A stretch of DNA of 64,000 nucleotides from Azospirillum lipoferum 4B (GTDB taxonomy: Bacteria; Pseudomonadota; Alphaproteobacteria; Azospirillales; Azospirillaceae): assembly GCF_000283655.1 (NCBI RefSeq), contig NC_016588.1, positions 62,001-126,000 of the forward strand, written 5' to 3'. Every line of letters begins with the position of its first letter. The first letter of the stretch is position 1. Position numbers and translations under genes: made by a program. Below the pieces are notes generated by a model, which made no database searches, had not been told where the DNA came from, and was given only the letters and a program-made list of their open reading frames with translations. Positions 9,862 to 58,759 of this stretch are shown piece after piece.

Positions 9862-12096
9862 TCAGAAACCCGTCTCGCGGATCAGCACCGACGCGGCGAT
9901 GCGCCAGAAGCGTTCGGCGATGCTGCGGGCCTCGCCCGCCACGCGGACGATGCCGCGGGTCACGCGCTCCGGTCCCTCCTGTACGGCACCGGGCCCCCCG
10001 GGCTCCGGCTCGACGTCCAGGGTGATGCGGTAGACCGCCTCCACCGGGGCGAGCGCGCTACGGCCGGCACTGCCATGCGGCTGGCCCGGTTGCGGTCCGG
10101 CCTGCCCCTCCACCGCCACCGGGCCGCCATTGACCGAGGCGAGCGCCGGCACGTCCAGAACCGAGACGGCGACCGGATCGACCGCGCGAACCCGCGCCGC
10201 GCGCCGGGGAGCCAGCGGGTCGTCGGGGTGGAACTCCGCCCCGGCGCCCGGGCTCAGCCGGTCGAAATCGCCCTCTCCGACATAGCCGACCAGTTCGCCG
10301 CTGCCGGGCGCCACCACCATCGCCAGCGGCAGCTTCGGCCCGATCCAGCGGCCGGGGGTCAGCGCATCCTCCATGTCGCGCACGGTGCCCGACAGGGGAG
10401 CGCGCACCACCAGCCGCTCGCGGTTGTCGAGAAGCCCCTGCCGCTCGGCGAGCGCGGCGGCCAGATCCTCCTCCATCGCCCGCACGCGGTCGAGCTGCTC
10501 GCGGCTGGCGGTCAGGCGGGCGATCTGCTCCTGCATCCAGTCGATGCGCAGCTCCGCCTGGCGCAGCTTGCCCTCCAGGTCGGGGGCGGTCAGGCGGAAC
10601 AGCGGCTCGCCCTCCACCACGCTCTGGCCGCGGGCGACCAGCGTCTCCTCCAGCCGGGCGGGGAAGGGGGCGTAGACGGTGGCGAATCCGGATGCCCGCC
10701 AGACCACCGGCACCGACACGGTGGCGGTCACCGGCAGCAGGGTCAGCCCGACCGCCGCCGCCAGCCAGGCCAGCGTCAGCCCGGTGCGCAGGTTGACCCG
10801 GAAGCGGTCGCGCAAGGACCACCAGACCTTCGCCTCGTGCAGCAGGGGCCGGGCGATGAACCAGCCGATCTCGATGACGAACAACAGGATCCCCAATACC
10901 TTGATGGCGACGTGGTAGACCAGCAGCGCGATGCCGAGGAACAGCACCAGCCGGTAGACCCAGGTGACGTAGGAATAGACCAGCAGGATGCGGCGCCGCG
11001 CCGCCGGCATCTCCTCCGGCGGGGCCATGCCCAGGCCGAACAGCCATTCCCGCAGCTTCCAGCGCGCCATGGCGAAGCCGCGTTCCTGCAGGTTGGGCAC
11101 GTCCAGCGCGTCGGACAGCAGGTAATAGCCGTCGAAGCGCATGAAGGGGCTGAGGTTGATCGCCAGCGTGGTGATCCAGCTGACCGTCGCCAGGAAATAG
11201 GCGGCGCTGCGCAGCGGCCCGTCGGGCAGGAAGCTCCAGGCCAGCGTGGCGAAGACGGCGATCGTCAGCTCGGTCAGCATGCCGGCCGCCCCCACCGCCA
11301 GCCGCTGCCGGCGCGAGACCAGCCTCCAGGCGTCGGTGGTGTCGGTGTAGAGCACCGGCCACATCACCAGGAAGGCCAGCCCCATGGTCGGCACCCGGCA
11401 GCCGTAGCGCTTGGCGGTGTAGGCATGGCCCAGTTCGTGGCAGATCTTGGTGCCCAGCAGCGTGACGCCGTAGAGCGCCAGCCCTTCGGGCGAGAAGAAA
11501 TGCTGGAAGGTGTGGAGGAAGGCGTCCCACTGCCGCGCCACCAGCAGCCCGGCCAGGACCGCGGTCAGCAGCACCAGGACCAGCCAGGCCCGGCTGTAGA
11601 AGGGCGCCACCAGCCCCACCGTCGCCGACAGGAAACGGTCGGGCCGCACCAGCGGGATGCGGAAGAACAGGTAGTTGTGGACCAGCCACCAGAACCAGCC
11701 GGTCTTCCGCGCCGCCGCCTGACGGGCCAGAAAGGCGGTGTCGACGGTGACGGTCAGGTTGTTGGCCGCCAGGAACTGGTAGAAGGCCATGACGTCGTCG
11801 ACCGTCGGCTCGAACAGGCTCTCCTCCGCCACCGCCGCGGCGATGGCGGCCGGGTTGGCGTGGTGCCAGTGCGCGATCAGCGCGAAGGCCTCCGGCCCGA
11901 TGCGGAAATAGCGGTTGCGCACCGGATCGTGGATGGTCCAGCCCGGCGCCCCGTCCTGCCCCGCCGGCGCCGGCAGCAGAGCCAGATCGTCGCGCAGCCC
12001 CGGCAGCCGCATGGCGGCCCGCGGGTCGGCGGGGGCGGAAGCGGCGGCGCGGAGGCTGGCAGAGGGACCGGCGGGGGGCGTGAGGGCGATGGACAC
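9862..12096 (-). CDS. M50-type membrane metalloprotease fused to a HlyD/lipoyl-like domain
   Basis: 744 residues, GTG start. Residues 50-115 resemble a PqqD-like wing. Several membrane segments follow (about 133-185, 205-215, 265-315, 370-410, 437-460). The site-2 protease motif HELGH is at 220-224 and the second motif N314-L-S-P then F321-D322-G is intact, so the metalloprotease should be active or at least bind zinc. Residues 465-740 form a HlyD/biotinyl-lipoyl-like periplasmic adaptor region with a coiled-coil hairpin (about 505-560). I infer it is the inner-membrane component of the exporter formed with the three upstream minus-strand genes; a mazEF pair separates it from them. The SD (AAGGA) is about 12 bases from the start, so the start is uncertain. 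Confidence 0.8.
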   Translation of the reverse strand: MSIALTPPAGPSASLRAAASAPADPRAAMRLPGLRDDLALLPAPAGQDGAPGWTIHDPVRNRYFRIGPEAFALIAHWHHANPAAIAAAVAEESLFEPTVDDVMAFYQFLAANNLTVTVDTAFLARQAAARKTGWFWWLVHNYLFFRIPLVRPDRFLSATVGLVAPFYSRAWLVLVLLTAVLAGLLVARQWDAFLHTFQHFFSPEGLALYGVTLLGTKICHELGHAYTAKRYGCRVPTMGLAFLVMWPVLYTDTTDAWRLVSRRQRLAVGAAGMLTELTIAVFATLAWSFLPDGPLRSAAYFLATVSWITTLAINLSPFMRFDGYYLLSDALDVPNLQERGFAMARWKLREWLFGLGMAPPEEMPAARRRILLVYSYVTWVYRLVLFLGIALLVYHVAIKVLGILLFVIEIGWFIARPLLHEAKVWWSLRDRFRVNLRTGLTLAWLAAAVGLTLLPVTATVSVPVVWRASGFATVYAPFPARLEETLVARGQSVVEGEPLFRLTAPDLEGKLRQAELRIDWMQEQIARLTASREQLDRVRAMEEDLAAALAERQGLLDNRERLVVRAPLSGTVRDMEDALTPGRWIGPKLPLAMVVAPGSGELVGYVGEGDFDRLSPGAGAEFHPDDPLAPRRAARVRAVDPVAVSVLDVPALASVNGGPVAVEGQAGPQPGQPHGSAGRSALAPVEAVYRITLDVEPEPGGPGAVQEGPERVTRGIVRVAGEARSIAERFWRIAASVLIRETGF

Positions 12097-12174
12097 GGGA
12101 GGACGGCGTCCTTTTCGGGAAAGCGGGTCAGAAATGGCGTGAAGCTGTGGAGCGGCGCCGAGCCTGCATCGCCG

Positions 12175-12213
12175 TTGACGGTATGGGCGAAAGCGCCCAG
12201 GTTACATGTAACC
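12175..12213 (+). promoter_or_regulatory. Probable autoregulatory operator of the mazEF-like pair
   Basis: A perfect 14-bp palindrome GGTTACATGTAACC (12200-12213) lies 17 bases before the antitoxin start. Immediately upstream is a second inverted repeat, TGGGCG-AAAG-CGCCCA (12184-12199), and a TTGACG that could be a -35 box (12175-12180). Toxin-antitoxin pairs usually repress themselves at such palindromes. The -10 box is not clear. Confidence 0.55.
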
Positions 12214-12230
12214 GACGACAGGAGTCTGAC

Positions 12231-12458
12231 ATGCCTGCAATCCGCCAGACCTCGCGCGAAAAGGTGAAGGCGCACCGTGCGCGGCTTCGGGCGCAGGGGC
12301 TGCGTCCGGTGCAGATTTGGGTCCCCGACGTCCGCAGCCCGTCCTTCGTCGCCGAAGCCCGGCGCCAGTCCCTGGCCGTCGCCCGCAGCCCGCAGGAGGC
12401 CGACGACCAGGGCTTCGTCGATGCCGCGGGCTGGGCTTCGCTGGATGACGGCGAATGA
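12231..12458 (+). CDS. MazE-like antitoxin (DUF3018 type)
   Basis: 75 residues from ATG 12231, chosen over an upstream in-frame ATG because GGAG lies at 12221-12224 and a palindromic operator lies just before it. The N-terminus (REKVKAHRARLRAQGLRPVQ) is the basic DNA-binding region typical of DUF3018 antitoxins. The middle, IWVPDVRSPSFVAEARRQ, is the signature of this family, and the acidic C-terminus would bind and block the toxin. It overlaps the toxin gene by four bases (ATGA). Confidence 0.85.
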   Translation: MPAIRQTSREKVKAHRARLRAQGLRPVQIWVPDVRSPSFVAEARRQSLAVARSPQEADDQGFVDAAGWASLDDGE

Positions 12459-12832
12459 AGCGGGGCGAGATCTGGACGGTGGCCGGCGGGGCCGACCATG
12501 CGGGAAAGCCGCGGCCGGTCGTCATCCTGCAGGACGACCGCTTTTCCGGCACCGCCTCGGTCACCGTCTGTCCGTTCACGACCGATCCGACCGACGCGCC
12601 GCTGTTCCGCCGGCCGGTCCAGCCGACCGGCGGCAACGGCCTGAGCCAGTCCTCCCGCATCATGGCGGACAAGATCATGACGGTTCCGCGGGCCAAGGTC
12701 GGGCATCGGATCGGCGTGCTCGAAGCCGCCCATCTGGCCTGGATCGGCAAGGCCGTCCTCGTGTTTCTCGGTCTGGCCGGAGGCGGCTTTTCCGAAGAAG
12801 GGGCGGAATCCGATCCGGCTCTTGCCGGCTGA
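12455..12832 (+). CDS. MazF/PemK-like endoribonuclease toxin
   Basis: 125 residues. The start MKRGEIWTVAGG and the KPRPVVILQDDRF segment are the classic MazF/PemK beta-barrel signature. The later SSRIMADKIMTVPRAKVG corresponds to the strand carrying catalytic residues. Members cleave mRNA at short sequences and are blocked by the partner antitoxin encoded immediately upstream. The pair lies on the plus strand, convergent with the HlyD gene 37 bases downstream, inside an otherwise minus-strand secretion block. Confidence 0.88.
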   Translation: MKRGEIWTVAGGADHAGKPRPVVILQDDRFSGTASVTVCPFTTDPTDAPLFRRPVQPTGGNGLSQSSRIMADKIMTVPRAKVGHRIGVLEAAHLAWIGKAVLVFLGLAGGGFSEEGAESDPALAG

Positions 12833-12869
12833 TGGAGGGGGCGGGCTTTCCATCCCCGGCCGCTTCCCC

Positions 12870-14324
12870 TCAAATCCCCAGCGACTGGCGCAGCAGGGCC
12901 AGCGGGCGGCGGAACAGGTAGAGCGCCAGCGGCACGCGGTCGCCCAGGATCTTGGCGGTGCCACGCAGGCCGATGCGCGGCGGGGCCTCCCCCGGGTTCT
13001 GGCCCGGTTCCAGCGCCGCCTTGACGCGGTAGGACAGCACGCCGGCGGCAGACAGGCCGGCCTCGTAGCTGGCATGGGTCAGGCGGGCCCGGAGGGGGTG
13101 GAGCGGATCGACGTTCAGGAACAGCTCCACCGGCGAGCCCGGCTCCAGGACCAGGGCGTCGCCGACCGGCACCATGATGTCGATCTCCGGCGCCTGCGGG
13201 TCGGCCAGCGTCAGCACGCGCTCGCCCACCGACAGCGGCTTGCCCAGCCAGTCGTTGACATCGGTGAAGACGGCGATGCCGGCGCGCTCGGCCTTCACCG
13301 TGACCCGGTCCAGCAGGTCGCGGGCGAGCGCCAGCTCGGCCCGGCGCAGCTCCACCTGGGCGCGGAGCTGGGCGACGCGGGCCTTGGTCTGCGGATCGGC
13401 GAAGGCGGCCTGCGAGGCGGTCAGCAGTTCGGCCTCCGCCTGGGTCAGCCCCTTGCGCGCCACCTCGAAGCGGCTGCGCAGCACGGTGGAATCGAAGCTG
13501 AACAGCGGCTGTCCGGCCGCCACCGCCTGGTTCGGCTGCACATGGAAGCGCTCGATCACGCCGTCCAGCGGGGCGGCGACGATCACCGGGTTGCTGGTCT
13601 GGATCTCGGCCGGGGCCAGGGTCGACATCGGCACCGGGATGGCGAGCGCGCCGGCGGCGGCCAGCAGGACCAGCAGCGGCAGCAGGGCGCGGCGCAGCCC
13701 GCGCCGCTTGGCACGCTTGCCCGACAGCGCCCACCAGGCATGGCCGTAGCCCTCCGCCAGATGGCTCAGCAGCAGGATTTCGCCGTCGGTCCACGGCTCG
13801 TCGCGGCCCAGCCACAGGCCGGCCAGCGGCGGGGCGGCCTTGTCCCGGCTTTCCGCCGGGGCGCCGGGCACGGTTTCCCGCTGGGGTTCCGGCTTGCGCA
13901 GCGGGCACCACAGGACCTGTGCCGGCCCCCATTCGCCCCAGGCGCCGCGGACCTCGGCGGGCAGGGCGGCGGGATCGACGACATGGACCTTATCGGCCCC
14001 GGCCCCGGCGGCGACGGCGCGCACCGCCTGCTCCAGCCATTGGGCGAAGGGGGCGTTCGGTTCCAGGACCGCGATGTTGGACACCGCCTCCAGCGTCGGC
14101 CGGCCCCGGTCCGCCAGGGTCAGGAAGGCGGCCTGCCGGTAGGCGATCAGCCGGCGGGTCTGGTTGACGATGTGATAGCGCAGCTCCGGCACCGTCGCCT
14201 GCTGCCACGCCAGCCGCTGCAGTTCCAGCAGCATCAGCAGGCCGTTGACCGGCTGCGGTGCTGCCTGTGGAGCCGCCTGGGGCGCAGCCTGCTGGGGCGG
14301 GGGCTGGGCCATCGCGGCGCTCAT
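12870..14324 (-). CDS. HlyD-family adaptor with cytoplasmic GAF-like domain
   Basis: 484 residues from ATG 14324, which overlaps the upstream stop by four bases (ATGA); the open frame continues further upstream, but that is the neighbour's shadow. After a Gln/Ala/Pro-rich tail, residues 35-195 resemble a GAF domain (QNATVPEL-type helix, YRQAAFLTL, then a strand pattern). One membrane helix lies at about 212-230. Residues 235-484 form the HlyD adaptor: lipoyl half-motifs around APLDGVIERFHVQPNQAV, a coiled-coil hairpin at about 290-350, and a beta-barrel part. The protein therefore puts a potential sensor domain in the cytoplasm and an adaptor in the periplasm, next to an outer-membrane channel gene. 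Small-molecule sensing is not shown. Confidence 0.8.
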   Translation of the reverse strand: MSAAMAQPPPQQAAPQAAPQAAPQPVNGLLMLLELQRLAWQQATVPELRYHIVNQTRRLIAYRQAAFLTLADRGRPTLEAVSNIAVLEPNAPFAQWLEQAVRAVAAGAGADKVHVVDPAALPAEVRGAWGEWGPAQVLWCPLRKPEPQRETVPGAPAESRDKAAPPLAGLWLGRDEPWTDGEILLLSHLAEGYGHAWWALSGKRAKRRGLRRALLPLLVLLAAAGALAIPVPMSTLAPAEIQTSNPVIVAAPLDGVIERFHVQPNQAVAAGQPLFSFDSTVLRSRFEVARKGLTQAEAELLTASQAAFADPQTKARVAQLRAQVELRRAELALARDLLDRVTVKAERAGIAVFTDVNDWLGKPLSVGERVLTLADPQAPEIDIMVPVGDALVLEPGSPVELFLNVDPLHPLRARLTHASYEAGLSAAGVLSYRVKAALEPGQNPGEAPPRIGLRGTAKILGDRVPLALYLFRRPLALLRQSLGI

Positions 14325-15193
14325 GGCTTCGCGGTTCCGGGCTTGGCAGTCCCCTGCGGAGTCCCCTGGTTCCCGGCCGGCAGCGCCGACAGCGCCGGTT
14401 CGGGGAAGATGGCGGTGCCGCTCATGCCGGCGACAAGCCCCTGGGCAGGAGCGTCGCCGGTCAGCTTCGCGGTCACCTTCACCGACTGGCTGGCCGGATC
14501 GACCTTGGCGCCGGGCAGCACCACCTCGCCCGGCAGGGTGGCCCCGGTCTCGTCGACCCGCAGGTCGAAGCGCTGCCCCGGCTTCAGCCACACCAGCCAG
14601 GAGGAGGGGACGATCAGCTCCACCTTCAGGTCGCGGTCGGACAGGATCTCCAGCAGCGGCGCGCCGGCGGCGACCGACTCATGCTCCTGGATCCGGCGTT
14701 CGACCGCGCGGCCGTCGAAGGGTGCCTTGATCTCGCAGCGCCGGGCCTGCACCTCCGCCTTGCGGACGTCGGCGCGGGCGACCTGGACCTTCGCCTCGGC
14801 CAGCTGCACCTCCGCCTCGCCGATGGAGCGCAGGCTGTTCAGGCGCCGGTTGACCCGCGCCGTCACGTCCGCAGCGTTCAGTTGGGCGCGGGCGGCGTCC
14901 AGTTCCGCCTGATAGCTGGCGCAGTCGAAGGCGACCAGCAGGTCGCCGGCCTTGAAGCTCTGGCCGGCATCGACGCTCATGCGGGCGATGCGGCCGGGGA
15001 TCTCGGAGGACAGGACCGCATGCCGCCTCGCCTCGATCAGCGCGCGGACCTGCCCCTGCGAGGTGTCCTGGGCGACCGCCGGGTTGGAGGCGAGCCCCCC
15101 GCCCAGCAGGACGGCCACGAGTGCGGCTGCCTGTGCGGCGGCCTGGGCGGCAGCTAGTGCGGCGGCTTTCGCCGCCGCGCCGGGATGGATCAC
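14321..15193 (-). CDS. Periplasmic adaptor (membrane fusion) subunit of the exporter
   Basis: 290 residues from a GTG at 15193 overlapping the TolC-like gene's stop (GTGA). The N-terminus is a long Ala-rich hydrophobic stretch ending in AVA-QD, a good signal-peptidase site near residue 42. Then come lipoyl-like half-motifs (SSEIPGRIARMSVDAGQSFK), a helical hairpin (AELDAARAQLNAADV to VARADVRKAEVQ), the second half-motif (IKAPFDGRAVERRIQEHESV), and a beta-barrel end. This is RND/HlyD adaptor architecture. Its position between TolC-like and HlyD-like genes, with overlaps on both sides, makes it part of one export complex. Confidence 0.85.
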   Translation of the reverse strand: MIHPGAAAKAAALAAAQAAAQAAALVAVLLGGGLASNPAVAQDTSQGQVRALIEARRHAVLSSEIPGRIARMSVDAGQSFKAGDLLVAFDCASYQAELDAARAQLNAADVTARVNRRLNSLRSIGEAEVQLAEAKVQVARADVRKAEVQARRCEIKAPFDGRAVERRIQEHESVAAGAPLLEILSDRDLKVELIVPSSWLVWLKPGQRFDLRVDETGATLPGEVVLPGAKVDPASQSVKVTAKLTGDAPAQGLVAGMSGTAIFPEPALSALPAGNQGTPQGTAKPGTAKP

Positions 15194-17403
15194 AGCGACG
15201 CGACCTTGCCCATCGGCAGGCTGTCGGACTGGGTTTCCTGAGCAGAGAGGGTACGAACGGTGCATTCCCGCTGCTTGTCCTTCACACGATGACAGAACCG
15301 CTCGGCCGCGGCGCGGTCCGCGAAACCTCCGGCGCGCAGCTGGACAATCGGCTTGCCGTCCTCGCTGCGCCGGGTGGTGACGTACAGGGCGCCGGCCCCG
15401 TCCATTCCCGTTCCCAGACGTTTGGCGATCATACCCCATTCGCGCTCGGCAAGCCTGTGGCTTGCGTAAGCCCCAAGATCGACCTGGATGACAGGAGAGA
15501 AGGACGCTGTCGCAACCGGAGCGGGGGCAGGGGCCGGAACCGGAGCCGGAACGGGGGCCGCAACCGGAGCCGGAGCCGCAACCGGAGCCGCGGCGGGTGT
15601 TGTGGCGGGTGCTGCGGAAGATGCCAGAACGAAGGGCGTGGAGGCCGGAGCCGGTTCGGTCGCCACGGCCGTCGGCGCTTCCGCAGCTGCAACAGGGGCA
15701 GCAACGGAGGTCGGGGCCGGAGCGGGGGCAGCAACGGGGCCGGGGACCGGGGCCGGAGCGGCCGCCATGGGCACCGCCGCCTTGGCGGGCTCGGGCTTGA
15801 CCGGCTCCGCCTTGGCCGGTTCCGTCTTGTCGGCCTTGGCCGCGTCCTTCGCCACCAGATCCTTGACGCGCAGCACGCTGTTGGCGCGCTCCTGCCAGGA
15901 GGACAGGCCCTTGGCCACCGCCTGGGTCAGGGTGGGCAGGTCGTCGGCGGCCATCGTCTCGGGCAGCGGATCGACGCCGGCCGACACCATGACGCGGGCA
16001 TAGGCGTTGTGCAGGTCGGCCAGCACCAGGTCGCGGCGCAGGTCGGACAGCAGCGCCGTCACCTCCGACTGGATCACGCCCAGCTCGCCCACCTGGCCGG
16101 CCTCGCCGACGTTGGTGTATTGCGAGCGGATGCGGGTGTCGAGGTCGGCCTGCTCGGCGGTCAGAGCGAATTCCTGCTTCAGTTCGCGGAACTGCAGCAC
16201 CGCCACATGCACCTGGCTCAGCACCGCCATGCTCAGCGCCTGACGGCGGAAGGCGACCAGCTCCTCCTGCGCATCGGCGTAGGACTTGGTGGCGGGGGCG
16301 GAGACCAGATTGATCAGGTTCCAGCTGATCCGCGCGCCGTAATCGGCCCAGCGCTGGTTCAGCAGGAAGCTGTTGCTGTCATAGCGCAGGGCGGCGTTGA
16401 CGTCGATGCCCGGCAGCAGCTTCAGCAGCGACCGCCAGGTCTCGTCGGTGGAGATGCGCTGGTTGTAGCTCTCCTCCAGCAGCTCCGGCCGGTTCAGCAG
16501 GGCGTAGGTCTCCAGCGCCTCGACCGCGACGTCCAGCTTGGGCGGCGCCTTCATGATGCTGGCCGGCGGCAGCTCGATCTCGAACGGCTCGCCCGGCGGC
16601 AGCCCCATCAGCGCGCCCAGCTGCGACTTCGCCGCCACCAGCTCGCGCCGCAGCGACTGCAGCTGGCGCAGCGTTTCCACCAGGGTGCGGGTGTAGGTCA
16701 GCGCCTGCAGCGGGGCCTGTACGCGCAGCGCCTCCAGCGTGCGGGCGTCGCGGCGCGCGCCCTCCACCCGCTTCTCCACCGGCTCCAGCCGCTTCAGCAG
16801 CCGTTCGGCGGCCACGGCGCGCCAATAGGCGGTGCGCACGTCCTGCATGATGCCCTGGACGACGCGGCGTCGGCGCTCGTCGGCGATCAGCACCAGATTG
16901 GCGTTCTGCCGCGCCCGCAGATAGCTGACGCCGAAATCCAGCACGTTCCAGGTGAAGGCGAGGTCGCCGGTGCGGCGGTGCTTGTCGGTGGCGGTGGTGC
17001 TCTCGCCCGTCCGCCTGCCGGTGGCGAGGTTCAGGCTTTCCGATCCGGCATCGTTGTTGCGCCCGACATAGCCGGCGGCGGCCACGACGCGCGGCAGCAT
17101 GTCGTAGCGCGACAGGTCCAGCTGATCGGTGGCGACCGCCACCTCCATCAGCTTCACGCGTTCGTCGAGGTTGTACTTGATGGCGCGCGCCATCGCCTCG
17201 TCCATCGAGACTGCCTTGGTCAGCGGCTCCTGCGGGGACAGCACGACGCCCAGATCCTTGCGCACGCGCGCCAGATTCTCCTCGGCCGTCAGCGGCTCGG
17301 GTTTGACCGCGCAGCCCGCGGCCAGCAGGGATACCGTCAGGACGGCGACGGGAACCACCGAAGAAAGCAAGCGGCGGCGGAAGCGGACTGTCGAAGTCTT
17401 CAT
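15190..17403 (-). CDS. TolC-family outer-membrane lipoprotein with C-terminal SPOR-like domain
   Basis: 737 residues, ATG 17403. A lipobox LLAAGC puts the lipidated Cys at residue 31. Residues 50-490 have the duplicated helical layout of TolC/OEP channels (repeats around ALETYALLNRPELLEE and AYWRAVAAERLLKRLE). Residues 500-635 are a Pro/Ala-rich linker with many PAPAPV units, long enough to reach peptidoglycan. The last ~100 residues (QVDLGAYASHRLAEREW, then VQLRAGGFADRAAAERFC) look like a SPOR domain, which binds denuded peptidoglycan. A TolC channel with its own SPOR anchor is unusual. It is followed, with a GTGA overlap, by the adaptor gene. Confidence 0.85.
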   Translation of the reverse strand: MKTSTVRFRRRLLSSVVPVAVLTVSLLAAGCAVKPEPLTAEENLARVRKDLGVVLSPQEPLTKAVSMDEAMARAIKYNLDERVKLMEVAVATDQLDLSRYDMLPRVVAAAGYVGRNNDAGSESLNLATGRRTGESTTATDKHRRTGDLAFTWNVLDFGVSYLRARQNANLVLIADERRRRVVQGIMQDVRTAYWRAVAAERLLKRLEPVEKRVEGARRDARTLEALRVQAPLQALTYTRTLVETLRQLQSLRRELVAAKSQLGALMGLPPGEPFEIELPPASIMKAPPKLDVAVEALETYALLNRPELLEESYNQRISTDETWRSLLKLLPGIDVNAALRYDSNSFLLNQRWADYGARISWNLINLVSAPATKSYADAQEELVAFRRQALSMAVLSQVHVAVLQFRELKQEFALTAEQADLDTRIRSQYTNVGEAGQVGELGVIQSEVTALLSDLRRDLVLADLHNAYARVMVSAGVDPLPETMAADDLPTLTQAVAKGLSSWQERANSVLRVKDLVAKDAAKADKTEPAKAEPVKPEPAKAAVPMAAAPAPVPGPVAAPAPAPTSVAAPVAAAEAPTAVATEPAPASTPFVLASSAAPATTPAAAPVAAPAPVAAPVPAPVPAPAPAPVATASFSPVIQVDLGAYASHRLAEREWGMIAKRLGTGMDGAGALYVTTRRSEDGKPIVQLRAGGFADRAAAERFCHRVKDKQRECTVRTLSAQETQSDSLPMGKVASL

Positions 17404-17476
17404 GGCGGGAGCAATTCCGTTCGGCGGAAAAGGATTGGACGAGGAAACGGTGCGGGAAGAAGGGGAGGTTGGGAAG

Positions 17477-17498
17477 CGGGCCGCCGTCAGGCGGCCCG
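17477..17498 (-). terminator. GC hairpin at the 3' end of the adhesin gene
   Basis: A 9-bp perfect stem (17477-17485 with 17490-17498) has the tetraloop GTCA, and the adhesin stop codon (TCA on the plus strand, 17487-17489) lies inside the loop. No T-run follows on the minus strand, only a pyrimidine-rich stretch. It may act as a partial terminator or mRNA-stability element that lowers expression of the channel genes relative to the adhesin. Confidence 0.5.
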
Positions 17499-20400
17499 GC
17501 TGTCGGGCAGGATGTGGCTGGCGAGTGCCGCCAGCAGGTCGGCGGCACCGGCCGGACCGCCATGGGCGCGGGCGACCTGACGGGCGAAGCCGGGGGAGGC
17601 CGGCATGATCTCGGCACGGTCGTCCGCCCCACGATCCGCCGGCTGTCCGGCCCCGTCCGCCGGGGTGCCGCCGCCATCCTGGGGGGCGTCCTGGTTCTGG
17701 GGCTGGTTCTGGTTTTGCGGCTGGTTCTGGGGTTGGCCCTGCGGCTGGCCCTGACCTTGGCCTTGCTGGCCCTGACCCTGCTGGCCCTGCGGACCCTGGG
17801 TCCCCGGCTGTCCGGTCGTCGAGCCGCGGCCCTGTCCGGTGCCGAGGCCGTTGCCCCGCTCCTGGCCCAAGCCTTGGCCTTGGCCCTGACCCTGACCGTT
17901 GTTCAGGCCGTTGCCCTGCGTGCCGGTCTGGCCGGGAGTGCTTTGGCCGGGAGTGCCCTGGCCGCCGGTATTGGTGCCCGTGCCCGTGCCCGTGCCGGTC
18001 CCTCCGGGCGTGCCGCCGGTACCGAGACCGCTGCCCAGACCATTGCTGCCAAGGCCATTGCCGCCCAAACCGCCGCCGGCAAGGCCGCCGCCACCCAGGC
18101 TGCCACCCAGGCCGCCGCCCAGGCCGCCGCCCAGACCACCGCCGAGGCCGCTTCCTCCCAGCCCGCTGCCGGAGCCGCTGTTGGAACCGGAGCTGGACGA
18201 ACCGCCGCCGATGCTGTTCAGCGTCACTGACCGGCCGGCATCCGTGCTGGACGAACCGCCGCCGATGTTGTTCAGCGTCACCGACCGGCCGGCGTCCGTG
18301 CTGGACGAACCGCCGCCGATGTTGTTCAGCGTGACCGACCGGCCGGCATCCGTGCTGGACGAGCTGCCGGGGGTTCCGCCGCTGGTACCGCTGGCGCCGC
18401 CGCCCGGCAGCGTCGGTCCGGAGCCGGTGCCGCCGGTGCCGCCCAACGGGCTGTTCGAGGAGCTGCTGGAGGACGGGCCGTTGGACGAGGAGCCGGTCGT
18501 CGAACTGCCGGACAGCGACGGGCCGTTGCCGCTGACGGTGACGGGTGTGGTCGTCGCCGGTGTGGTCGTCGCCGGTGTGGTGGGCGCCGTGGTGGTCGTG
18601 CTGGCGCGGGCCACCGCGACCGTCACCGTCGCCGCGGTCGAGCTGTTGCCGGCGAGGTCGCGGCCCTGGATGCTGATCGACCGGCTGGTCGCCGTGCCGG
18701 CGAAGCTCGGGTCGGAGGCGGTCGACCGCAGCCCGATCGCCTGCACCGCCGCCTGATAGTCGGCGGCCGACGCCGTGCCGGTCAGCACGATGCTGTTGCC
18801 GTCGCGGGTCGCGGTGATGCCGGCCGGCAGGGCGCCGATCACCAGCTCGTCGCCGCTGCGGGCATCGGTCAGGGTGACGGTCACCCGGTTCAGCGAACTG
18901 GCGTCCGACAGCGAGACGGCGGACCCCAGCGTCGCCGTGCCGCCGGCGCTCAGCGTCGGAGCGGTCCCGCCGGCGGACACCGTCGGGGCCTGGGTGTCGA
19001 CCGTCAGGCTCAGCGTTCCCGACCGGCCGATGTTGCCGGCGCTGTCGGTGGCGGTGGTCACCACGCTGTGGGCGCCGTCGGTCAGCGGGGTGGTGACGGC
19101 GAAGCTCCAGGACCCGTCGCTGCCGGCGGTGGCCGTTCCGACGGTGACGCCGTCGATGATGACGGTGACCGTGCTGTTCGGATCGGCGGTGCCGGTCAGG
19201 GTCGGCCGGTTGACCGGGGTGACGTTGGCGCTGTTGTCGATGCCGCCGGCAATCGCCGGGGTCGACAGCACCGGCGGCGTGGCGTCGACGGTCAGCGTCA
19301 GTGCCGCCGAGGTGCCGCTGTCGTTGCCGGCCGGGTCGGTCGCCCGGCTGGTGACGGCATGGGTGCCGTTGGCCAGCGGGGTGGTGGGCGTGAAGCTCCA
19401 GTTGCCGTCGGACCCGGCGATGGTGGTGCCGGCCGCGACGCCGTCGATCAGGACGGTGACGGTGGAGCCGGGCTCCGCCGTGCCGCCGACGGTCGGACGG
19501 CTGATGTTGGTCAGCCCGTCGGTGGCGGAGACGCCGGTGTCCTGTCCGGACGCCAGCACCGGGACCGAGGGGGTGGCCGGGGCGACGGTGTCGACCAGGA
19601 CGTTCTGCAGGCCCGGCATGCCGGTCAGCGTCGCCGGGAGCGGGATGCGGGCACGGTCGGTGATGCTGCCGCCGTTGTAGTTCAGTCCGGTGACGGCGAT
19701 GCCGTCGGCGTCGGCGTCGCCCGCCTGCACCACATAATCGAAGCGCAGGACCGTCCCGCTGCTGGCCGTGGCGTTGTAGACCGCTTGACGGGTCTGGCCG
19801 CCGACGTCCAGCGTGATGGTCGGGACACCGTTGACGATCACCACCTCGCTGGTCTGGATGTAGAAGCTCAGCGTCCGGCCGACGCCGTAGGTGCCGTCGA
19901 TGGGCGCAACGATGCTGCGGATCGTCGGCGCCGTGGTGTCGATGGCGATGTTCTTGTTCAGCCCCAGCGACCGCACGTCGCCCGGCATCGTCAGGGTCAG
20001 GACCCCGGCATTGCCGGCGATGTCCGTGATCGAACCGGCAAGTGCCGTCGTGCCGATCGCGTCCAGGTCGGCGGCGGTGTCGCCGGCCTGCACCGTGTAG
20101 GTGAAGGTCAGCGTGTTGGTGCCGGCCCCGCTGCTGTAGGTGGCGGTGCGGCCGGTGTTCAGCGCCAGCGTCGGGGTGCCGTTGACGGTCACCGCCTCGC
20201 TGAAGGTCACCTGGATCGAGATGGTCTCGCCGGTGGTGTAGGTGCCGTTCTCGGTGCTGGCGGTGACGTTGGTGACGGTGGGATGGACGCTGTCGACGCG
20301 CACGGCCCCCATGCCGGCGACGCTGTTCAGCGTGCGGATCGCGCTGTTGCCGATCAGGTCGGCGATGCTGCCGCCGCTGATCGATCCGCCGATGCCGATG

Positions 20401-23400
20401 CCGTCGGCATCGGTCAGGTTGGTGCCCACGGTGTAGCGGAAGGTCAGCGCGGTGCCGCCCGACCCCGACAGGTAGGTCGCCTGCACCACCGTGCCGTTGT
20501 CGAGCGTGATTCCGAAGGTCGGCGTGCCGGTGACGGTGACCGCTTCCGAGAAGGTGACGGTGACGTCGATGGTCTCGCCGGCCCGGTAGGTGCCGTTCAC
20601 CGCCGAGACGGAACTGACCGTCGGGGCCGCGGTGTCGATGACGATCGCCTTGTTGGCGCCCAGCGAGTTGGCCGCCCCCGGCGCCGCCAGCGTCAGGATC
20701 GCGTCCAGGCTGGTGGAGCTGTCGGCGATGCTGCCGCCGTTCAGCGTCAGCGCACCCGTCGAGGCATAATCGAGGTCGGCCGAGTTGTCGCCGTCCTGCA
20801 CCGTGTAGGTGAAGGTCAGCGTGGTCGTCCCCGATCCGCCGGTGTAGGTGGCGTTGCGGCCGATGTTCAGCGCCAGCGTCGGCGTGCCGGTGACCGTCAC
20901 CGCCCGGTTGAAGGTGACGGTGACGGTGACGGTGCTGCCGGCCTTGTAGGTGCCATCGGCGGTGGTGGTGGTGACCGACGAGACGGTCGGGTTGACGAGC
21001 GAGGTCACGACGAGGTCGTTGCCGGTGCCGCCGACGTAATCGACGGTGTAGAGGTCGCCGTTCGTGCTCAGCGTGTCGCCCTGCGCCAGCCCGGACAGGG
21101 TGCTGGACACCGCACCGCTGCCGGTCTGGTCGATCACCTTGTAGGTGGCGGCGTTGACGGCGGCGAAGCTGTTGACCCGGGCGACGGTGACGGCGCTCGA
21201 CCCGCTGGCCAGCGTGACGGTGCCGCTGACGATCACCTGATCGTAGCTGCCAGCCGCCGTGCCGGCGATCTCCACCGCCAGGGTGCCGCTCATCGACAGG
21301 TTGCCGTTGACGGTCAGCGAACCGATGCCGTTGTTGGTCCCGGCGACGCCGGGGGCCAGCGTGGCGCCGGAGGCCACCGTCAGCGTGTTGGAGGAGCCGC
21401 TGGCGAAGATGCTGCCGGTGCCGCCCAGCGTGGCGCCGGAGGCCACCGACACCCCGCTGGTGTCGCCCAGCGCTCCAGTCACCAGCACCGTCCCTGCCGA
21501 CACGGTGGTGCTGCCGCTGTAGGTGCTGCTGCCTGACAGGGTCAGCGTGCCGGTCCCCGACTTGGTCAGGTCGAAGGAGCCGTCGATGGTGTTGCTGAGG
21601 GTGGCGGTGTATCCCGAGCCGACGTCGATGGTGGCGGCGCCGCTCAGTTGGATGTAGTTGCCGAAACTCCCCGTCACCGCGAAGCTCAGCGTCGTGCCGG
21701 CGGCCAGATCGACGCCGGATGCGCCCAGACCGCCGGTGGAGGCGGCGATGATCGTGCCGGCGAAAATGCTGGTGCCGCCGTTGTGGGTGTTGGTTCCCGA
21801 CAGGGTCAGCGTGCCGCTGCCCTGCTTGATGAGCGTCACGCCGCCGGAGCCGCTGATGACGCCGCTGAACTCCGTCGACGTGTTGTTGCCGCCGGCCGTC
21901 AGAGTCCCGCCCAGCACGATGGCGCCGGCGCCGGCGATCGACCCCACCGTTTCCGTGTCCGGCACCGACAGCGTCGCCCCGCTCGCCACCGTCACCGCGC
22001 TGCTGTCGCTGATCGCCGAGCCGCCCGACGCGGTCAGCGTGCCGCCGGATACGGTGGTGGCACCGGTGTAGGTGTTGGCCCCCGAGAGGGTCAGGCTGCC
22101 GGCCCCCGACTTGGTCAGGCCGCCGGTGCCAGACAGCACGCCGGAGAAGCTGGTGGAGCCGCTCGACGGGCTGACGGTCAGGGTGTTGGCGCCCAGCGTG
22201 ACGTTGCCGGCACCGCTCAGCGAACCGATGGTCTCTGCGGCAGAGAGTGCCAGGGTGGCGCCGGAGCTGACCGACACCGCGTTGTCGTCGGCGATGGCCG
22301 AGCCGCCCGACACCGTCAGCGTGCCGGCCGACACGGTGGTGGCGCCGGTGTAGCTGTTGGCCCCCGACAGGGTCAGCGTGCCGGTGCCCGACTTGGTCAG
22401 GCCGCCGGTGCCGGACAGGACGCCCGACAGGGTGGCGCTGTTGGTGGTGTTGATCGTGGCGCCATTGCTGCCGGCGGTGATGGCGTTGGAGACGGTGGCG
22501 CCGGTGCCGGTGATCGCCAGCGTGGCGCCGTTGAGCGTCACGCTGCCGCTGCCCAGGTTGCTGCCGCCGGTCACCGACAGGGTGCCGGCGGTGACGCCGG
22601 TGGTGCCGGTGTAGCTGTTGGTGCCCGACAGCGTCAGGGTGCCGGTGCCGGTCTTCGCCAGATTGCCGGTGCCGGACAGCACGCCGGAGAAGGTGGTGGA
22701 GCTGTTGTCGCCGCCGGCCGTCAGGGTGTTGGCGCCCAGCGTCACCGAGCCGGCACCGGCGAGCGAGCCGATGGTCTCAGCCGCCGACAGGGTCAGCGTG
22801 GCGCCGCTGTCCACCGTCACCGCGCTGCTGTCGGCGATGGCCGAGCCGCCGGACACGGTCAGCGTGCCGGCCGACACCGTGGTGGCGCCGGTGTAGCTGT
22901 TGGCCCCCGACAGGGTCAGCGTGCCGGTGCCCGACTTGGTCAGGCCGCCGGTGCCGGACAGCACGCCGGAGAAGCTGGTGGTGCTGTTGTCCGCACCGGT
23001 GGTCAGGGTGTTGGCGCCCAGCGTCACCGAGCCGGCACCGGCGAGCGAGCCGATGGTCTCAGCCGCCGACAGGGTCAGCGTGGCGCCGCTGTCCACCGTC
23101 ACCGCGCTGCTGTCGGCGATGGCCGAGCCGCCGGACACGGTCAGCGTGCCGGCCGACACCGTGGTGCTGCCGGTGTAGGTGTTGGCTCCCGACAGGGTCA
23201 GCGTGCCGGAACCCGACTTGGTCAGGCCGCCGGTGCCGGACAGCACGCCGGAGAAGCTGGTGCTGGTGTTGTCCGCACCGGCCGTCAGGGTGTTGGCGCC
23301 CAGCGTGACGTTGCCGGCACCGGTGAGCGAGCCGATGGTCTCAGCGGCAGAGAGCGCCAGCGTGGCGCCGGTGCCGACCGACACGGCGCTGCTGTCGCTG

Positions 23401-26400
23401 ATCGCCGAGCCGCCGGACACGGTCAGCGTGCCGGCCGACACGGTGGTGGTGCCGGTATAGGTGTTGGCGCCCGACAGGGTCAGCGTGCCGGTGCCCGACT
23501 TGGTCAGGCCGCCGGTGCCGGACAGCACGCCGGAGAAGCTGGTGCTGGTGTTGTCCGCACCGGCCGTCAGGGTGTTGGCGCCCAGCGTGACCGAACCGGC
23601 ACCGGCGAGCGAGCCGATGGTCTCGGCGGCAGAGAGTGCCAGGGTGGCGCCGGTGCCGACCGACACGGCGCTGCTGTCGCTGATCGCCGAGCCGCCCGAC
23701 ACCGTCAGCGTGCCGGCCGACACGGTGGTGGCACCGGTGTAGCTGTTGGCTCCCGACAGGGTCAGCGTGCCGGTGCCCGACTTGGTCAGGCCGCCGGTGC
23801 CGGACAGGACGCCGGAGAAGCTGGTGCTGGTGTTGTCGCCACCGGCGGTCAGGGTGTAGCTGTCCAGCGTGACCGAACCGGCGCCGGTGAGCGAGCCGAT
23901 CGTCTCGGCTGCCCCCAGCGCCAGCGTGGCGCCGGAGTCGACCGTCATGGCGCCGGTATCGGCGATGGCGCTGCCGCCGTTCAGCGTCAGCGTACCGGCG
24001 CTGACGGTGGTGGCGCCGCTGCGGGTGTTGGTGCCGGACAGGGTCAGGGTGCCGGCACCGCCCTTGGTCAGGGCGCCGCTGCCGCTGATCACGCCAGTCA
24101 GGGTGGCGGTGTTGGATGCGGTGACGGTGGCGCCGAAGGTGCCGACGGTGATGAGGTTGGCGAGGCTGACGCCGGTGCCGGTGATCGCCAGCGTGCCGTT
24201 GTCGATCGTCAGCGCGCCTGTGCTGATGTTGGTGGCGTCGGTCACCGACAGGGTGCCGCCCCTGACGGCGGTGGTGCCGGTGTAGGTGTTGGCGCCCGAC
24301 AGCGTCATCGTGCCGCTGCCGGTTTTGACGATGTTTCCGGTCTGGTTTTGCTCGATGACGCCGGAGAACTCAGTCGACGTGTTGTCCCCGCCCATGGTCA
24401 GGGTGCCGTTGTTCAGACTGACCGTGCCGCTGCCGGACAGGGAGCCGATCGTCTCGCTCACGCTGTCGTCGAACCACAGGGTCGCCCCGGACGACACCGT
24501 CACGGCGGAGCTGTCCGCGATGGACGCGCCGCCTTGAAGCGCCAGGGTGCCGGCCGACACGGTGGTGGCGCCGCTGTAGGTGTTGGCGCCTGACAGAGTC
24601 AGGGTGCCGCTGCCGGCCTTGGTCAGCCCGCCGGTGCCGGACAGCACGCCGGAGAAGGTGGTGTTGGTGCCGTCGCCGGCCGTCAGGATATAGCTGCCCA
24701 GCGTGACCGAACCGGATCCGGCCAGCGAGCCGATGGTCTCGCTGGCGTCGAGCGCCAGGGTGGCGCCGGTCGACACCGTGACGGCGCTGCCGTTGCCGAT
24801 GGCACTGCCACCCGACGCCGTCAGGGTGCCGGCGGAAACGGTGACCGACCCGCTGTGGGTGTTGGTGCCGGACAGGGTGACCGTGCCGCTGCCGTCCTTG
24901 GTCAGGGCGCCGGTGCCGCTGACGACGCCGGACAGGGTGAGGGCGTTGGCGGTCTTCACCGTGCCGGTGCCGGTCAGGGCGATGGCGTTGGTCAGCGTCT
25001 GGCTGGCCGCCGTGGTGCTCAGCGTGCCGCCGTTCAGGGTGATGGTGCCGCTGCCGATGGTGCCGGATGCGCCCAGTTCCACCTCGCCGCTGCGGATGGT
25101 GGTGCCGCCGGACCAGGTGTTGTTGGCACCGCTCAGCGTCAGCTTGCCGGCACTCGACTTGGTCAGGCCGCCGGTGCCGGTGACATCGCCCGACAGGGTG
25201 ACGGCGTTGGCGTTGTCGATGGTGGAGCTGGACGACAGGGCGATGGCGTTGTCGATGGTGGTGGCGCCGGTGACGGTCAGGGTGCCGCCGCCCATCGTCA
25301 CCGTGCCGGTGCCCAGGTTGGCATCGCCCGCCACCGACAGCGTGCCGGCGCTGACGGTGATCGTGTTGATGCCGGTGTTGCCGCTGGCGGTGTTGTTGGT
25401 GCCGCCCAGCACCAGCGTGCCGGTGCCGCTCTTGGTCAGTGCCGCGCTGTCGGTGCCGTTGTCGGCCAGGGTGGAGTCGATGGTCAGCGTGTCGCCTTCG
25501 CCGACGCTGACGCCGAAGCTGTTGCCCAGCGTGAAGCCGTTGGCGGCGATGGTGATCGACCGGCTGTCGGTGTCGCTGTCCATCGCCAGCGTCACCCCGT
25601 CGCGCACCGTCAGGGTGGCGGGCAGCGTGATGGTGCCGCCCAGCGTGGTGGCGAAGCGGATGGTGATGTTGCCGCTCACGGCGTTGGCAAGGGCGATGGC
25701 CTCCTTCAGGTCCAGGCCGCCGCCGTCGCCCTTGTCGGCCGTATAGGTGCCGGCCGGTGCGCTGCTGTCGATGGCGGTGACGTCGACCGTCAGGTCGTTC
25801 GTCACGCTGATGCTGAACACCTCCTCATAGGTGGCAGTGCCGTCGCTGACCTGGATGCGGACCGAGTAGCTCTGCCCGGCGGTCAGGGTGCTGGCGTTGT
25901 TCGCCTGAAGCGACGTGCCGGAGATGTTGAACAGGGCGTTGTCGGTGTCGCCGGTGCCGCTGACCAGCGTATAGGTGAAGGTCTGGCCGGTGTCGGCATC
26001 GGTCTTCGACAGGGTGCCGACCACCGCATTGGTGCCGTCGAAGATGGTGACGGAGCTGTTCGACAGGGCGATGTCGGTCGGCGCGTCGTTGATCGAGGTG
26101 GCGGTGACGACCGTGCTGCTGTTGGCGCTGCTGCTGCTGATGCCGTCGCCGGCGGTCAGGCTGAAGGTGGTCTGCACCGTGCTGCCGGGCACCACCTGGT
26201 TGTTGGTGGGGGTGAAGACCAGCGCCTGCAGCAGGGTCTGCAGCCCGCCGGGCGTGGTGGCGGTCAGCGTGTAGTTGCCGGCCGTGCCGGTCAGCCCGCC
26301 GCCGGCGCTGGACAGCGTGCCGTTGGCCGCGGTGTAGGCGATGAGGACGGTGAAGGTCCCGGTGTTGTCGTCGGCATCCGTCACCGTCACGTTGGCGAAG

Positions 26401-29400
26401 GGCGTGGTGGTGGCGTTGTCGTCGACGGTGCCGGCGGTGGTGAAGGTGCCGGCCAGCGCCGGGGCCTGGTTGACCGGTCCGGTCAGCACGACGTCGTTGC
26501 TGTTGCTGCCGGCGGCATAGCTGATCGTGATCGTCCCGCTGTTCAGGCTCAGCGTGGCGCCCGAGGCCAGCCCGGTGAAGGTGCCGGTGACGGCGTCGCT
26601 GCCGTCGTTGGAGATGATGGCGAAGCTGTCGCCGCTGGCGGTCTTGGCCGGGGTGTAGCTGCCGCCGGCGGTCAGGGTGGCGCTGCTGACGTCCACCGCC
26701 CCGGTGACCGCCACCTGGTCATGGCTGCTGGTGCTGACCAGATCGACCGCCAGGGTGCCGCCCGACTGGATGGTCAGGCCCCCGTTGACGGTCAGGGTGC
26801 CGACGCCGTTGTTGGTGCCGGCGATGCCGGGGGACAGCGTGCCGCCGGACTGTACGGTCAGGCCGCCGTTGACGGTGCCCGTGCCGGCCAGCGTGCCGCC
26901 GCTGCCCACCGTGACCGCGCCGGCCGACGACCCGTTCAGGGTGCCGGTGACGATCAGGGAGCCGGCCGACAGGCTGGTGGTGCCGGTGTAGGTGCCGGTG
27001 GCGGACAGGGTCAGCGTGCCGGCGCCCGACTTGGTCAGGCCGCCGGAGCCGCTGATGACGCCCGACAGGGTCAGGGCGTTGCCGGTGTCGACGCTGACGG
27101 TGCCGTGGCTGCTGCCGAGCGCGACGGCGTTGGCCAGCGTGAGGGTGCCGGTGGAGGCCAGCGTGCCGCCGTTCAGCGTGACGGTGCCGGTGCCGAGGTT
27201 GGCGGCCGCACCGACCGCCAGCGTGCCGCCGTTCACCGTGGCGGCCCAGGCGGTGGAGTTGTTGGTGCCGGTCAGGGTCAGCGTGCCGCTGCCGCTCTTG
27301 GTCAGCGTGTTGGTTCCGGCGGCGATGGTGCCGGACAGGGTCAGCGCGTCGGCCGTGCTGACCGTGCCGCCGCCGGTGCTGACGGTCAGGCCGTTGGCCA
27401 GCGTGACGTTGCTGCCGGTCACCTCCAGCGTGCCGCCGCCGCTCAGCGTGATGCCGGCGCTGCTGATGTTGCCGGAGCCGGCGATCGACAGGGTGCCGGC
27501 GCCGACCGTGGTGGTGCCGGTGTAGCTGTTGGCGCCCGACAGCGCCACCGTGCCCGCCCCCACCTTGGTCAGGTTGAAGCCGCCGGAGATCGCGCCGGAG
27601 ATCGTCAGCGTGTCGCCGGCGGTGTAGGACCCGATGCCGGCGTCGGCGGCCAGCGTGACGGTGCCGCTGAGGGTGGCGCTGCCGGTGCCGCCCCCGTTGA
27701 CCTTCACGGCCCCGACATCCGAGCCGGAGATCGAGACCCCGTTGCCGCTGATCGTCAGGTTCTCGGCGACGGTCAGGCCGCTGTCGATGCGCAGGGTGGC
27801 GCCGCTGGCCACCGTGGTGGCGCCCGCCGTGGTTCCCAGCGCGTTGGCGTGGGTGATGTAGACGATGTTGGCGTTGATGTTGGTGGCGCCGGTGTAGGTG
27901 TTGTTCCCGCCGAGCGTCAGCATCTGCCCGCCGGTCTTGGTCAGCGAGCCCGACCCGCTGATGATGCCCGACAGGGTGGCGCCGCTGCTGGCGACGTTGA
28001 TCGTGCCGCCCGACGCCCCCAGCGCGATGGCGTTGTCGATGGTGCCGTTCACGTTGGCGAGGACGAGCGTGCCGCCGTCCAGCGTCAGCGTGCCGCCCAT
28101 CAGGTGATCGTCGTTGCCGATCGACAGCGTTCCTTCCGACACCGTGAGGCCGCCGGTCAACCCGGCCTCGTTGCCGGTGTTGGACAGGGTCAGGGTGCCG
28201 GCGCCGCTCTTGGTCAGCGCCTGCGCGCCGCCGGAGAAGGCGCCCGACATGGTGACCGCGGCGCTGTTGGAGATCGTGGCATTGCCCGACAGCGCCACGG
28301 CGTTGTCGATGGTGGTGGCGTCGGTGACCGCCAGCGTGGTTCCTGTCGCCAGCGTGACCGTGCCGCCCACCAGCGCGTTGTCGTCGGCCACCGCAAGCGT
28401 GCCGGCCGACACCGTGAGGCCGCCGGTCAGCCCGGCCTCGTTGCCGGTGTTCGACAGGGTCAGGGTGCCGGTGCCGCTCTTGGTCAGCGCCTGCGCGCCG
28501 CCGGAGAAGGCGCCCGACATGGTGACCGCGGCGTCGGTCTGGACGGTGGCCGCACCCGACAGCGCGACGGCGTTGTCGATGGTGGTGGCGCCGGTGACCT
28601 GCAGCGTGGTTCCCGCCGCCAGCGTGACCGTGCCGGCGACCAGCGCGTTATCGTCGGCCACCGCAAGCGTGCCGGCCGACACCGTGACGCCGCCGGTCAG
28701 CCCGGCCTCGTTGCCGGTGTTCGACAGGGTCAGGGTGCCGGTGCCGCTCTTGGTCAGCGCCTGCGCGCCGCCGGAGAAGGCGCCCGACATGGTGACCGCG
28801 GCGTCGGTCCGGACGGTGGCGGCACCCGACAGCGCCACGGCGTTGTCGATGGTGGTGGCGCCGGTGACCTGCAGCGTGGTTCCGGCGGCCAGCGTGACCG
28901 TGCCGGCGACCAGCGCGTCGTCGTCGGCCACCGCAAGCGAGCCGGCCGACACCGTGACGCCGCCGGTCAGCCCGGCCTCGTTGCCGGTGTTCGACAGGGT
29001 CAGGGTGCCGGTGCCGCTCTTGGTCAGCGCCTGCGCGCCGCCGGAGAAGGCGCCCGACATGCTGACCGCGGCGTCGGTCTGGACGGTGGCCGCACCCGAC
29101 AGTGCCACGGCGTTGTCGATGGTGGTGGCGCCGGTGACCTGCAGCGTGGTTCCGGCGGCCAGCGTGACCGTGCCGCCCACCAGCGCGTCGTCGTCGGCCA
29201 CCGCAAGCGTGCCGTCCGACACCGTGACGCCGCCGGTCAGCCCGGCCTCGTTGCCGGTGTTGGACAGGGTCAGGGTGCCGGTGCCGCTCTTGGTCAGCGC
29301 CTGCGCGCCGCCGGAGAAGGCGCCCGACATGGTGACCGCGGCGTCGGTCCGGACGGTGGCGGCACCCGACAGCGCTACGGCGTTGTCGATGGTGGTGGCG

Positions 29401-45011: not shown

Positions 45012-45574
45012 AACAGCCCCCGCAACCGCTCCACACCATGAAAGTCCGGATCAAAGTCAGGCCAACTCTGGTCCTTGACCGACATCTCGGTCGGCTGCAG
45101 TGGCCAGTCGACGCCAAATCTAGGATCGTCGAAGCGCACCCCTCGCTCATTTTGGGGGCTATAGGCCTCACTCACCAGATAGACCACCTCGGTCTCATCA
45201 GCCAAGGTGAGAAAAGCGTGGGCGCAACCGCGGGGAACATACATCATCGAACGGTTCTCCGCGCTCAATTCGGCCCCGAACCACTTTCCATAGCTGGGCG
45301 AATCGGGGCGCAGATCGAGGACCACGTCATAAAGAGCCCCGCGGACGCAGCGGATCAGCTTGATCTCTGCCGCCGGAGCCAATTGATAATGAAACCCGCG
45401 CAATGTGCCCGCTTTGCTGGTTACCGAATTGTTAAGCTGAACCACCGAGATGGGCCAGCCAGCCTCACCGAATTCCCGTTCGCAGAACATCCGGGCGAAG
45501 AAACCGCGCTCATCCCCACGTTTCTCCAGTTCGACGAGGCAGGCTCCGGTCAGCGGGGTGGCGTGGAACTTCAT
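45008..45574 (-). CDS. rmlC-like: dTDP-4-dehydrorhamnose 3,5-epimerase-like protein
   Basis: 188 residues from ATG 45574, preceded by GAGGGG. KRGDERGFFARMFCEREFGE, LRGFHYQ (catalytic His), KLIRCVRGALYDVVLDLR (Lys and Arg), and MYVPRGCAHAFLTL follow the RmlC cupin order; the usual GFAHGF is CAHAF here. Length matches RmlC (180-190). RmlA, RmlB and RmlD are not in the window, so it either uses dTDP-sugars made elsewhere or epimerises another 4-keto sugar. A structured leader lies just upstream. Confidence 0.85.
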   Translation of the reverse strand: MKFHATPLTGACLVELEKRGDERGFFARMFCEREFGEAGWPISVVQLNNSVTSKAGTLRGFHYQLAPAAEIKLIRCVRGALYDVVLDLRPDSPSYGKWFGAELSAENRSMMYVPRGCAHAFLTLADETEVVYLVSEAYSPQNERGVRFDDPRFGVDWPLQPTEMSVKDQSWPDFDPDFHGVERLRGLL

Positions 45575-58754: not shown

Positions 58755-58759
58755 CCCGG

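Follow-up and report, generated by a model that had tools for sequence, protein, structure and literature searches.

A conserved M50 protease, HlyD and TolC gene cassette as a candidate ABC-less export machine for LEPR-tagged giant adhesins

Genes at the locus

The window, which is the whole 64,000-nucleotide stretch of Azospirillum lipoferum 4B DNA that was analysed, carries on its minus strand a gene for a giant adhesin, followed by genes for a TolC-type channel, two HlyD-type adaptors and a protein in which an M50 protease is joined to an adaptor domain (M50-HlyD). The features are as follows.

17487..32879, minus strand: giant adhesin of 5130 residues, start assumed at the ATG at 32879; PF14252 and PF13385 in the N-terminal part
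32739..32768, minus strand: LEPR tag of the adhesin, LEPRFMFDAA; L, E, R and D invariant in 23/23 rows of alignment A5
32067..32543, minus strand: DUF4347 domain of the adhesin, predicted caspase-like fold with His/Cys dyad (PF14252, 1.1e-51)
17574..17591, minus strand: C-terminal F-x-x-Q-V element of the adhesin, recurring in relatives
15190..17403, minus strand: TolC-type channel with lipobox-like N-terminus and SPOR tail (PF02321, 1.6e-22; PF05036, 3.6e-6)
14321..15193, minus strand: HlyD1 adaptor with N-terminal hydrophobic segment, start uncertain; GTGA overlap with TolC
12870..14324, minus strand: HlyD2, with GAF-like cytosolic part, one TM and HlyD adaptor; ATGA overlap with HlyD1
12455-12832, plus strand: PemK/MazF toxin (PF02452, 1.8e-19)
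12231-12458, plus strand: MazE-like antitoxin (PF11455, 9e-26)
9862..12096, minus strand: M50-HlyD, with PqqD/RRE-like domain, membrane protease and adaptor (PF02163 and PF13437 over cut-off)
11752..11997, minus strand: PqqD/RRE-like domain of M50-HlyD, about residues 34-115, from the predicted model and alignment with PqqD-containing relatives
11425..11439, minus strand: HELGH zinc-binding motif of M50-HlyD, residues 220-224, present in 43/43 relatives

The original prediction had placed a TolC-SPOR channel, two HlyD adaptors with GTGA and ATGA overlaps, and an M50-HlyD protein with an HELGH motif beside an adhesin of 5130 residues; all of these are present, on the minus strand. Its claim that the window encodes no ABC, RND or autotransporter protein also holds among the 34 distinct ORFs scanned with Pfam, and these include no energised RND, MFS or MacB pump. 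An ABC protein hidden in the window was rejected by a pattern scan, the combination of Walker A and ABC signature being absent from every window ORF of at least 60 aa. The description of the second adaptor as GAF-HlyD stands in part: the HlyD adaptor is there, whereas Pfam finds no GAF domain in the window HlyD2. In the relative at locus L021 a GAF match is borderline (22.5 against a cut-off of 22.4), and the HlyD2 profile aligns with GAF-HlyD proteins of the sister system described below (hhalign 99.9%).

The ORF of the adhesin extends over 17487-33041 (5184 codons), the ATG at residue 55 giving the protein of 5130 residues. Its first 330 residues contain no hydrophobic segment. The last 399 residues of the adhesin match no Pfam or NCBIfam family, whether for a T1SS signal, RTX repeats or an autotransporter barrel. 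By its predicted model, the DUF4347 domain has a clan CD-type caspase-like fold with a His/Cys dyad; in alignment A5 the Cys is present in 23/23 sequences and the His in 22/23. The 773-bp gap between HlyD2 and M50-HlyD was considered as the site of a missing gene of the system, a possibility rejected on finding that the gap is taken up by the MazEF toxin–antitoxin pair (12231-12832, plus strand), which sits antisense between the two genes. In A. ramasamyi, HlyD2 and M50-HlyD lie 42 bp apart.

M50-HlyD has the hallmarks of an M50 site-2 protease in sequence and model, with HExxH and a third Asp ligand in a membrane domain. Every aligned relative keeps the zinc site (43/43 and 8/8), so that a processing role is plausible. 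The N-terminus is modelled as three strands followed by three helices, an arrangement which fits PqqD/RRE and suggests a likely peptide-reading domain. This region aligns with that of PqqD-containing relatives, including the protein of L108, whose Pfam PqqD match is over cut-off; that of L109 is just under. Pfam lists no PqqD match for the window M50-HlyD or for A2, and a fold search with the whole M50-HlyD model returned a list filled by adaptor matches, PqqD structures not being among them. Among NCBIfam models, the M50 part comes closest to that of a daptide protease, at 158 bits against a cut-off of 300.

Distribution of the cassette, the tag and ABC genes

A scan with seven M50-HlyD proteins (A1) yielded at least 592 confirmed relatives. 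The best 80 of these were taken as genome loci, which biases the sample towards close relatives; the window and six plasmid loci bring the total to 87. Cassette genes were sought in all 87 with HMMs derived from five cassettes, and HlyD2 turned up in 83 loci, HlyD1 in 71 and TolC in 60. The original prediction had called for a survey of co-occurrence, and M50-HlyD, HlyD2, HlyD1 and TolC do occur together in 59 of these 87 loci, or 56 of the 70 in which the stretch upstream of the M50 gene measures 4.3 kb or more; Azospirillum, Nitrospira and E. coli plasmids are all represented among them. Judged by the titles of their records, the best 80 relatives span Alpha-, Beta- and Gammaproteobacteria, Nitrospira, SAR11, Desulfobacterota, Campylobacterota and Magnetococcales. 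The HMM search did not find TolC in several loci with room for it, including SAR11 L027, L038, L039 and L057. Gene order also varies: in L017 and L032, TolC and HlyD1 are encoded on the opposite strand, and the giant gene is placed between HlyD1 and HlyD2 in L047 and L069. Among complete E. coli genomes, cassette DNA was matched in 24/5426, in 22 of them over at least 80% of its length and mostly on plasmids; plasmids of Citrobacter and other enterobacteria carry it too. In a class-wide draw of 190 genomes, ten have M50-HlyD-like matches (193-312 bits), which are read as members of subfamily 1.

The original prediction had also called for a check on whether an ABC gene is always missing from such cassettes. 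As regards exporters of the type I secretion system (T1SS), a motif pattern scan found no ABC protein of this type in any of the 87 loci. ORFs with an ABC signature occur in seven, all of them stand-alone ATPases of 261-375 aa. The same pattern does detect large ABC ORFs next to HlyD genes in L098 and L101. These observations support M50-HlyD, the adaptors and TolC as a conserved unit which accompanies giant adhesins and, in the stretches scanned, is without a T1SS-type ABC protein.

T1SS-like ABC genes were also sought elsewhere in the genomes. The LssB model was matched over cut-off in 14/30 cassette genomes and in 0/18 of a further set, and the PrtD model in 3/5 and 4/18, or 7/23. Both T1SS ABC models were searched in these 23 genomes, PrtD having been run on them and not on the other 25; five of the 23 were chosen for lacking full-length LssB-like matches. 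Ten of the 23, several of them incomplete, have no LssB or PrtD match at E 1e-110 or better (G009, G014, G300-G306 and G308), among them a Nitrospira represented by a whole-chromosome record (G009) and all seven SAR11 genomes searched. Another seven, comprising six Nitrospira MAGs and one Nitrosospira (G294-G299 and G307), hold a full-length LssB-like match of 565-581 bits, under cut-off.

A tag, LExRxxFD[AG]A, is common to the N-termini of the giants. A pattern written after the giant ORFs had been read, LE.R..[FLYMI]D[AGS][AG], is matched by 31 ORFs in 30/87 loci, with the match beginning at residues 4-116; a single shuffle of these ORFs gave one match. The large repeat-type ORFs of L040 and L056 have no tag. 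L042 carries two tagged giants in tandem (13367-15652 and 16227-20531). An independent test of the tag was provided by NF012209 (LEPR-XLL; curated cut-off 17 bits) in 82 genomes of one order, that of G001. M50-HlyD is present in 54 of these, NF012209 over cut-off in 46 and both in 44, an association with a Fisher value of 4e-11, uncorrected for kinship. Individual genomes depart from it in both directions. A draft contig of G099 bears a tagged giant over the NF012209 cut-off and G082 one below it, full M50-HlyD being found in neither, and the over-cut match in G089, which has no M50-HlyD, is on a 256-aa frame and is probably noise. Ten M50-positive genomes are without an over-cut LEPR match, several having sub-threshold matches on giant ORFs, and the match of G104 sits on a frame of 199 aa. 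In some cases the tagged giant and the M50 gene are separated by hundreds of kb or more. The window adhesin itself has no NF012209 match listed at E 0.01; the LEPR motif is present in it. Many giants of subfamily 1 score near the cut-off of 17.

At the other end of the giants, the C-terminal element seen as F-x-x-Q-V in the window adhesin was found in 26/38 against 7% in shuffles, the pattern having been chosen after looking. In Nitrosomonas and Nitrospira loci L046, L053 and L077, some giant-like ORFs end with a hydrophobic stretch and a polar tail in place of an F/L-x-x-Q-L/V element.

DUF4347 was also named in the survey that the original prediction called for, and in the 82 genomes of the one order a strong match (E <1e-35) is found in 54/54 M50-positive genomes and in 6/28 others. 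Of 20 DUF4347 genes picked away from M50-HlyD, 17 have no tag and three do (L089, L093 and L102). DUF4347 is thus shared with other routes of export, and it is the tag that accompanies M50-HlyD. The untagged include those of L098 and L101, which stand beside a large ABC ORF and HlyD.

A sister system was reached from weaker plasmid matches, opened via the M50 gene. Its loci, L107-L110, hold a giant gene (out of view in L107), GAF-HlyD and PqqD-M50-HlyD, with a DUF3467 gene in three. A SecA-like protein of 638-674 residues is encoded in all four (PF07517, 9.5e-85 to 1e-103). In a comparison of the two systems, profiles A4 and A7 align over nearly their full length (hhalign 100%). The giants of the sister system, of about 8,850, 10,500 and 12,900 residues by annotated coordinates, carry the LEPR-XLL tag in the three N-termini read (ALEPRFLLSAD, TLEPRVLLNAD and ALEPRLLLSAD) and match NF012209 at 36 bits. 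Among 30 cassette genomes the short SecA-like gene was found in four, each time beside the sister M50 gene, only SecA of housekeeping size being seen in the other 26. Of the 82 genomes, G083 and G101 alone have it. In each of these two the gene directly adjoins a sister M50 gene and shares its contig with a 36-bit LEPR-XLL match, neither of which was seen in any other of the 82. No SecA-like ORF was found in the window or in the other 86 loci. Public records label the SecA-like proteins of L107-L110 variously as prepilin peptidase, DEAD/DEAH helicase or hypothetical protein. In L109 a SapC family protein (13867-14688; PF07277, 1e-72) adjoins the SecA-like gene.

A proposed export route and its alternatives

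Taken with the conservation of the genes, the tag association, the intact active-site residues and the predicted folds, the gene content of the locus leads us to favour, with reasonable though far from full confidence, a dedicated ABC-less machine for the export and processing of the LEPR-tagged giant adhesin. The original prediction of a different export machine stands as regards a conserved ABC-less unit accompanying giants; its role in export is what we infer from gene content. In the proposed scheme M50-HlyD would be the inner-membrane hub. RRE domains read and bind the leader peptides of RiPPs, and the cytosolic PqqD/RRE-like domain of M50-HlyD would bind the LEPR tag of the adhesin in the same manner. 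The site-2-type protease may then trim the leader, cleaving the adhesin, or gate the machine at the membrane. The adaptor domain of M50-HlyD, together with HlyD1 and HlyD2, would build a periplasmic duct to TolC-SPOR, and the caspase-like DUF4347 domain, which follows closely on the tag, may mature the adhesin or set it free after export. Pushing by a SecA-type motor is the first choice, because a dedicated SecA-like ATPase is part of the sister system. The window version, without an ATPase of its own, would borrow housekeeping SecA or another source of energy. Since this version lacks an ATPase and 26 of 30 cassette genomes have only SecA of housekeeping size, the proposed motor rests on the sister system, and SecA as the motor of the window version is on the doubtful side of possible. 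More generally, we tentatively entertain, at somewhat under even chances, a separate Gram-negative secretion pathway in which an RRE-type domain would read the LEPR tag on proteins of up to ~13,000 residues, dedicated or housekeeping SecA-type ATPases would drive transport, and a fused site-2 protease-adaptor would feed a TolC duct without an ABC protein.

The giant adhesins LapA, SiiE and BapA are secreted by type I secretion. Like them, the window protein is a giant repeat adhesin without a Sec signal beside TolC- and HlyD-type genes. In contrast to theirs, its locus has no ABC gene and includes an N-terminal LEPR tag, M50 and PqqD-like domains and three adaptor domains. The HlyD-type adaptor and TolC-type channel of a T1SS are present, but its defining inner-membrane ABC protein was sought in the window and the 87 loci without being encountered, and T1SS membership was set aside. 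A related explanation is that an unlinked ABC exporter works with these adaptors and TolC to export the adhesin, M50-HlyD serving only in processing or regulation. Most cassette genomes own T1SS-like ABC genes, one of which could be dedicated to this task, and the six Nitrospira MAGs and the Nitrosospira share their full-length LssB-like gene; unlinked T1SS genes are, moreover, known for Legionella RTX proteins, according to the accessible text of PMC7730722. We nevertheless consider this explanation improbable, given the lack of T1SS-type ABC genes across the 87 loci, the ten genomes (several incomplete) without an LssB or PrtD match at the threshold used, and the untagged state of the DUF4347 proteins beside ABC and HlyD genes in L098 and L101.

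Equally improbable in our estimation is a complex for processing, quality control or surface anchoring, the adhesin being exported by Sec or another route. A protease intact in all relatives aligned, a SPOR domain on the channel and a cassette without an ATPase would all suit such a complex, whereas the adhesin N-terminus has no Sec-type hydrophobic signal, duct-type parts (three adaptor domains and TolC) are linked to giants across phyla, and the sister cassette does include a SecA-like ATPase. An exporter or maturation system for RiPP-like peptides which merely neighbours the adhesin would account for the PqqD-like domain and the sub-threshold resemblance of the M50 part to a daptide protease. 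This is very improbable, and was set aside as the main role: no small precursor or RiPP enzyme gene was noticed in the annotated cassettes L002-L005, and the recurring neighbour is a giant tagged protein.

The favoured export and processing machine can be compared with several further systems. With the leader proteases of RiPPs (daptide MpaP and YydH/LiaK) it has in common a related M50 part and, beside the protease, a putative PqqD-like leader-reading domain; unlike theirs, its substrate is thousands of residues long, and adaptor, TolC and GAF-HlyD parts are added. The adaptor differs from those of the MacAB, EmrAB and RND tripartite pumps in being fused to a membrane protease rather than paired with an energised pump. 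In accessory SecA2 systems a short SecA paralogue is found next to a giant surface protein, an arrangement repeated in the sister system, although there the SecA is joined to M50-HlyD and TolC in Gram-negatives, and it is absent from the window version.

In PMC10868602 a giant protein of Vibrio is reported to carry a LEPR-XLL domain N-terminally, and no tie of this domain to an export route was found in the accessible parts of the open-access literature. The accepted view, as given in the abstract of PMC8277102, is that a tripartite TolC exporter requires an energised transporter of the ABC, RND or MFS type in the inner membrane. No description of the present system was found in the accessible parts of the open-access literature, a body of work that leaves most subscription papers and bioRxiv outside and includes PMC13274458, PMC7730722, PMC10868602, PMC12322963, PMC8277102 and PMC8262886. 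A gene set recurring across several phyla looks like an undescribed export route for giant tagged proteins, with a tag that looks universal on the giant substrates and a SecA-like ATPase in the sister system. If so, bacteria would have a further secretion route, built on a widespread TolC/HlyD cassette with a protease as its hub, the LEPR-XLL domain would gain a function and the exit of LEPR-XLL giants from the cell an explanation, and RiPP-style leader recognition would be extended to the export of giant proteins.

Close relatives and surroundings of the locus

The closest named relative is a plasmid of A. ramasamyi, where M50-HlyD is 95.7% identical over residues 53-744. Azospirillum brasilense carries the cassette as well (L002). 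In Azospirillum sp. B510 (NC_013860.1), M50-HlyD (146606-148681) lies ~23 kb from TolC-HlyD1-HlyD2 (171385-175755) and is immediately preceded by a MazEF-like match. Convergent to M50-HlyD in the window is a gene on the plus strand (6727-9834) for a serralysin-like M10 protease with RTX repeats and a tail of repeated FDxxxYLAxNPDLxxAFG; an M10 protein is annotated at the corresponding place beside M50-HlyD in A. ramasamyi. Further along the window, on the minus strand (44040-59812), is a glycan operon encoding NeuB, UDP-GlcNAc 2-epimerase, a DegT aminotransferase and a dTDP-sugar epimerase.
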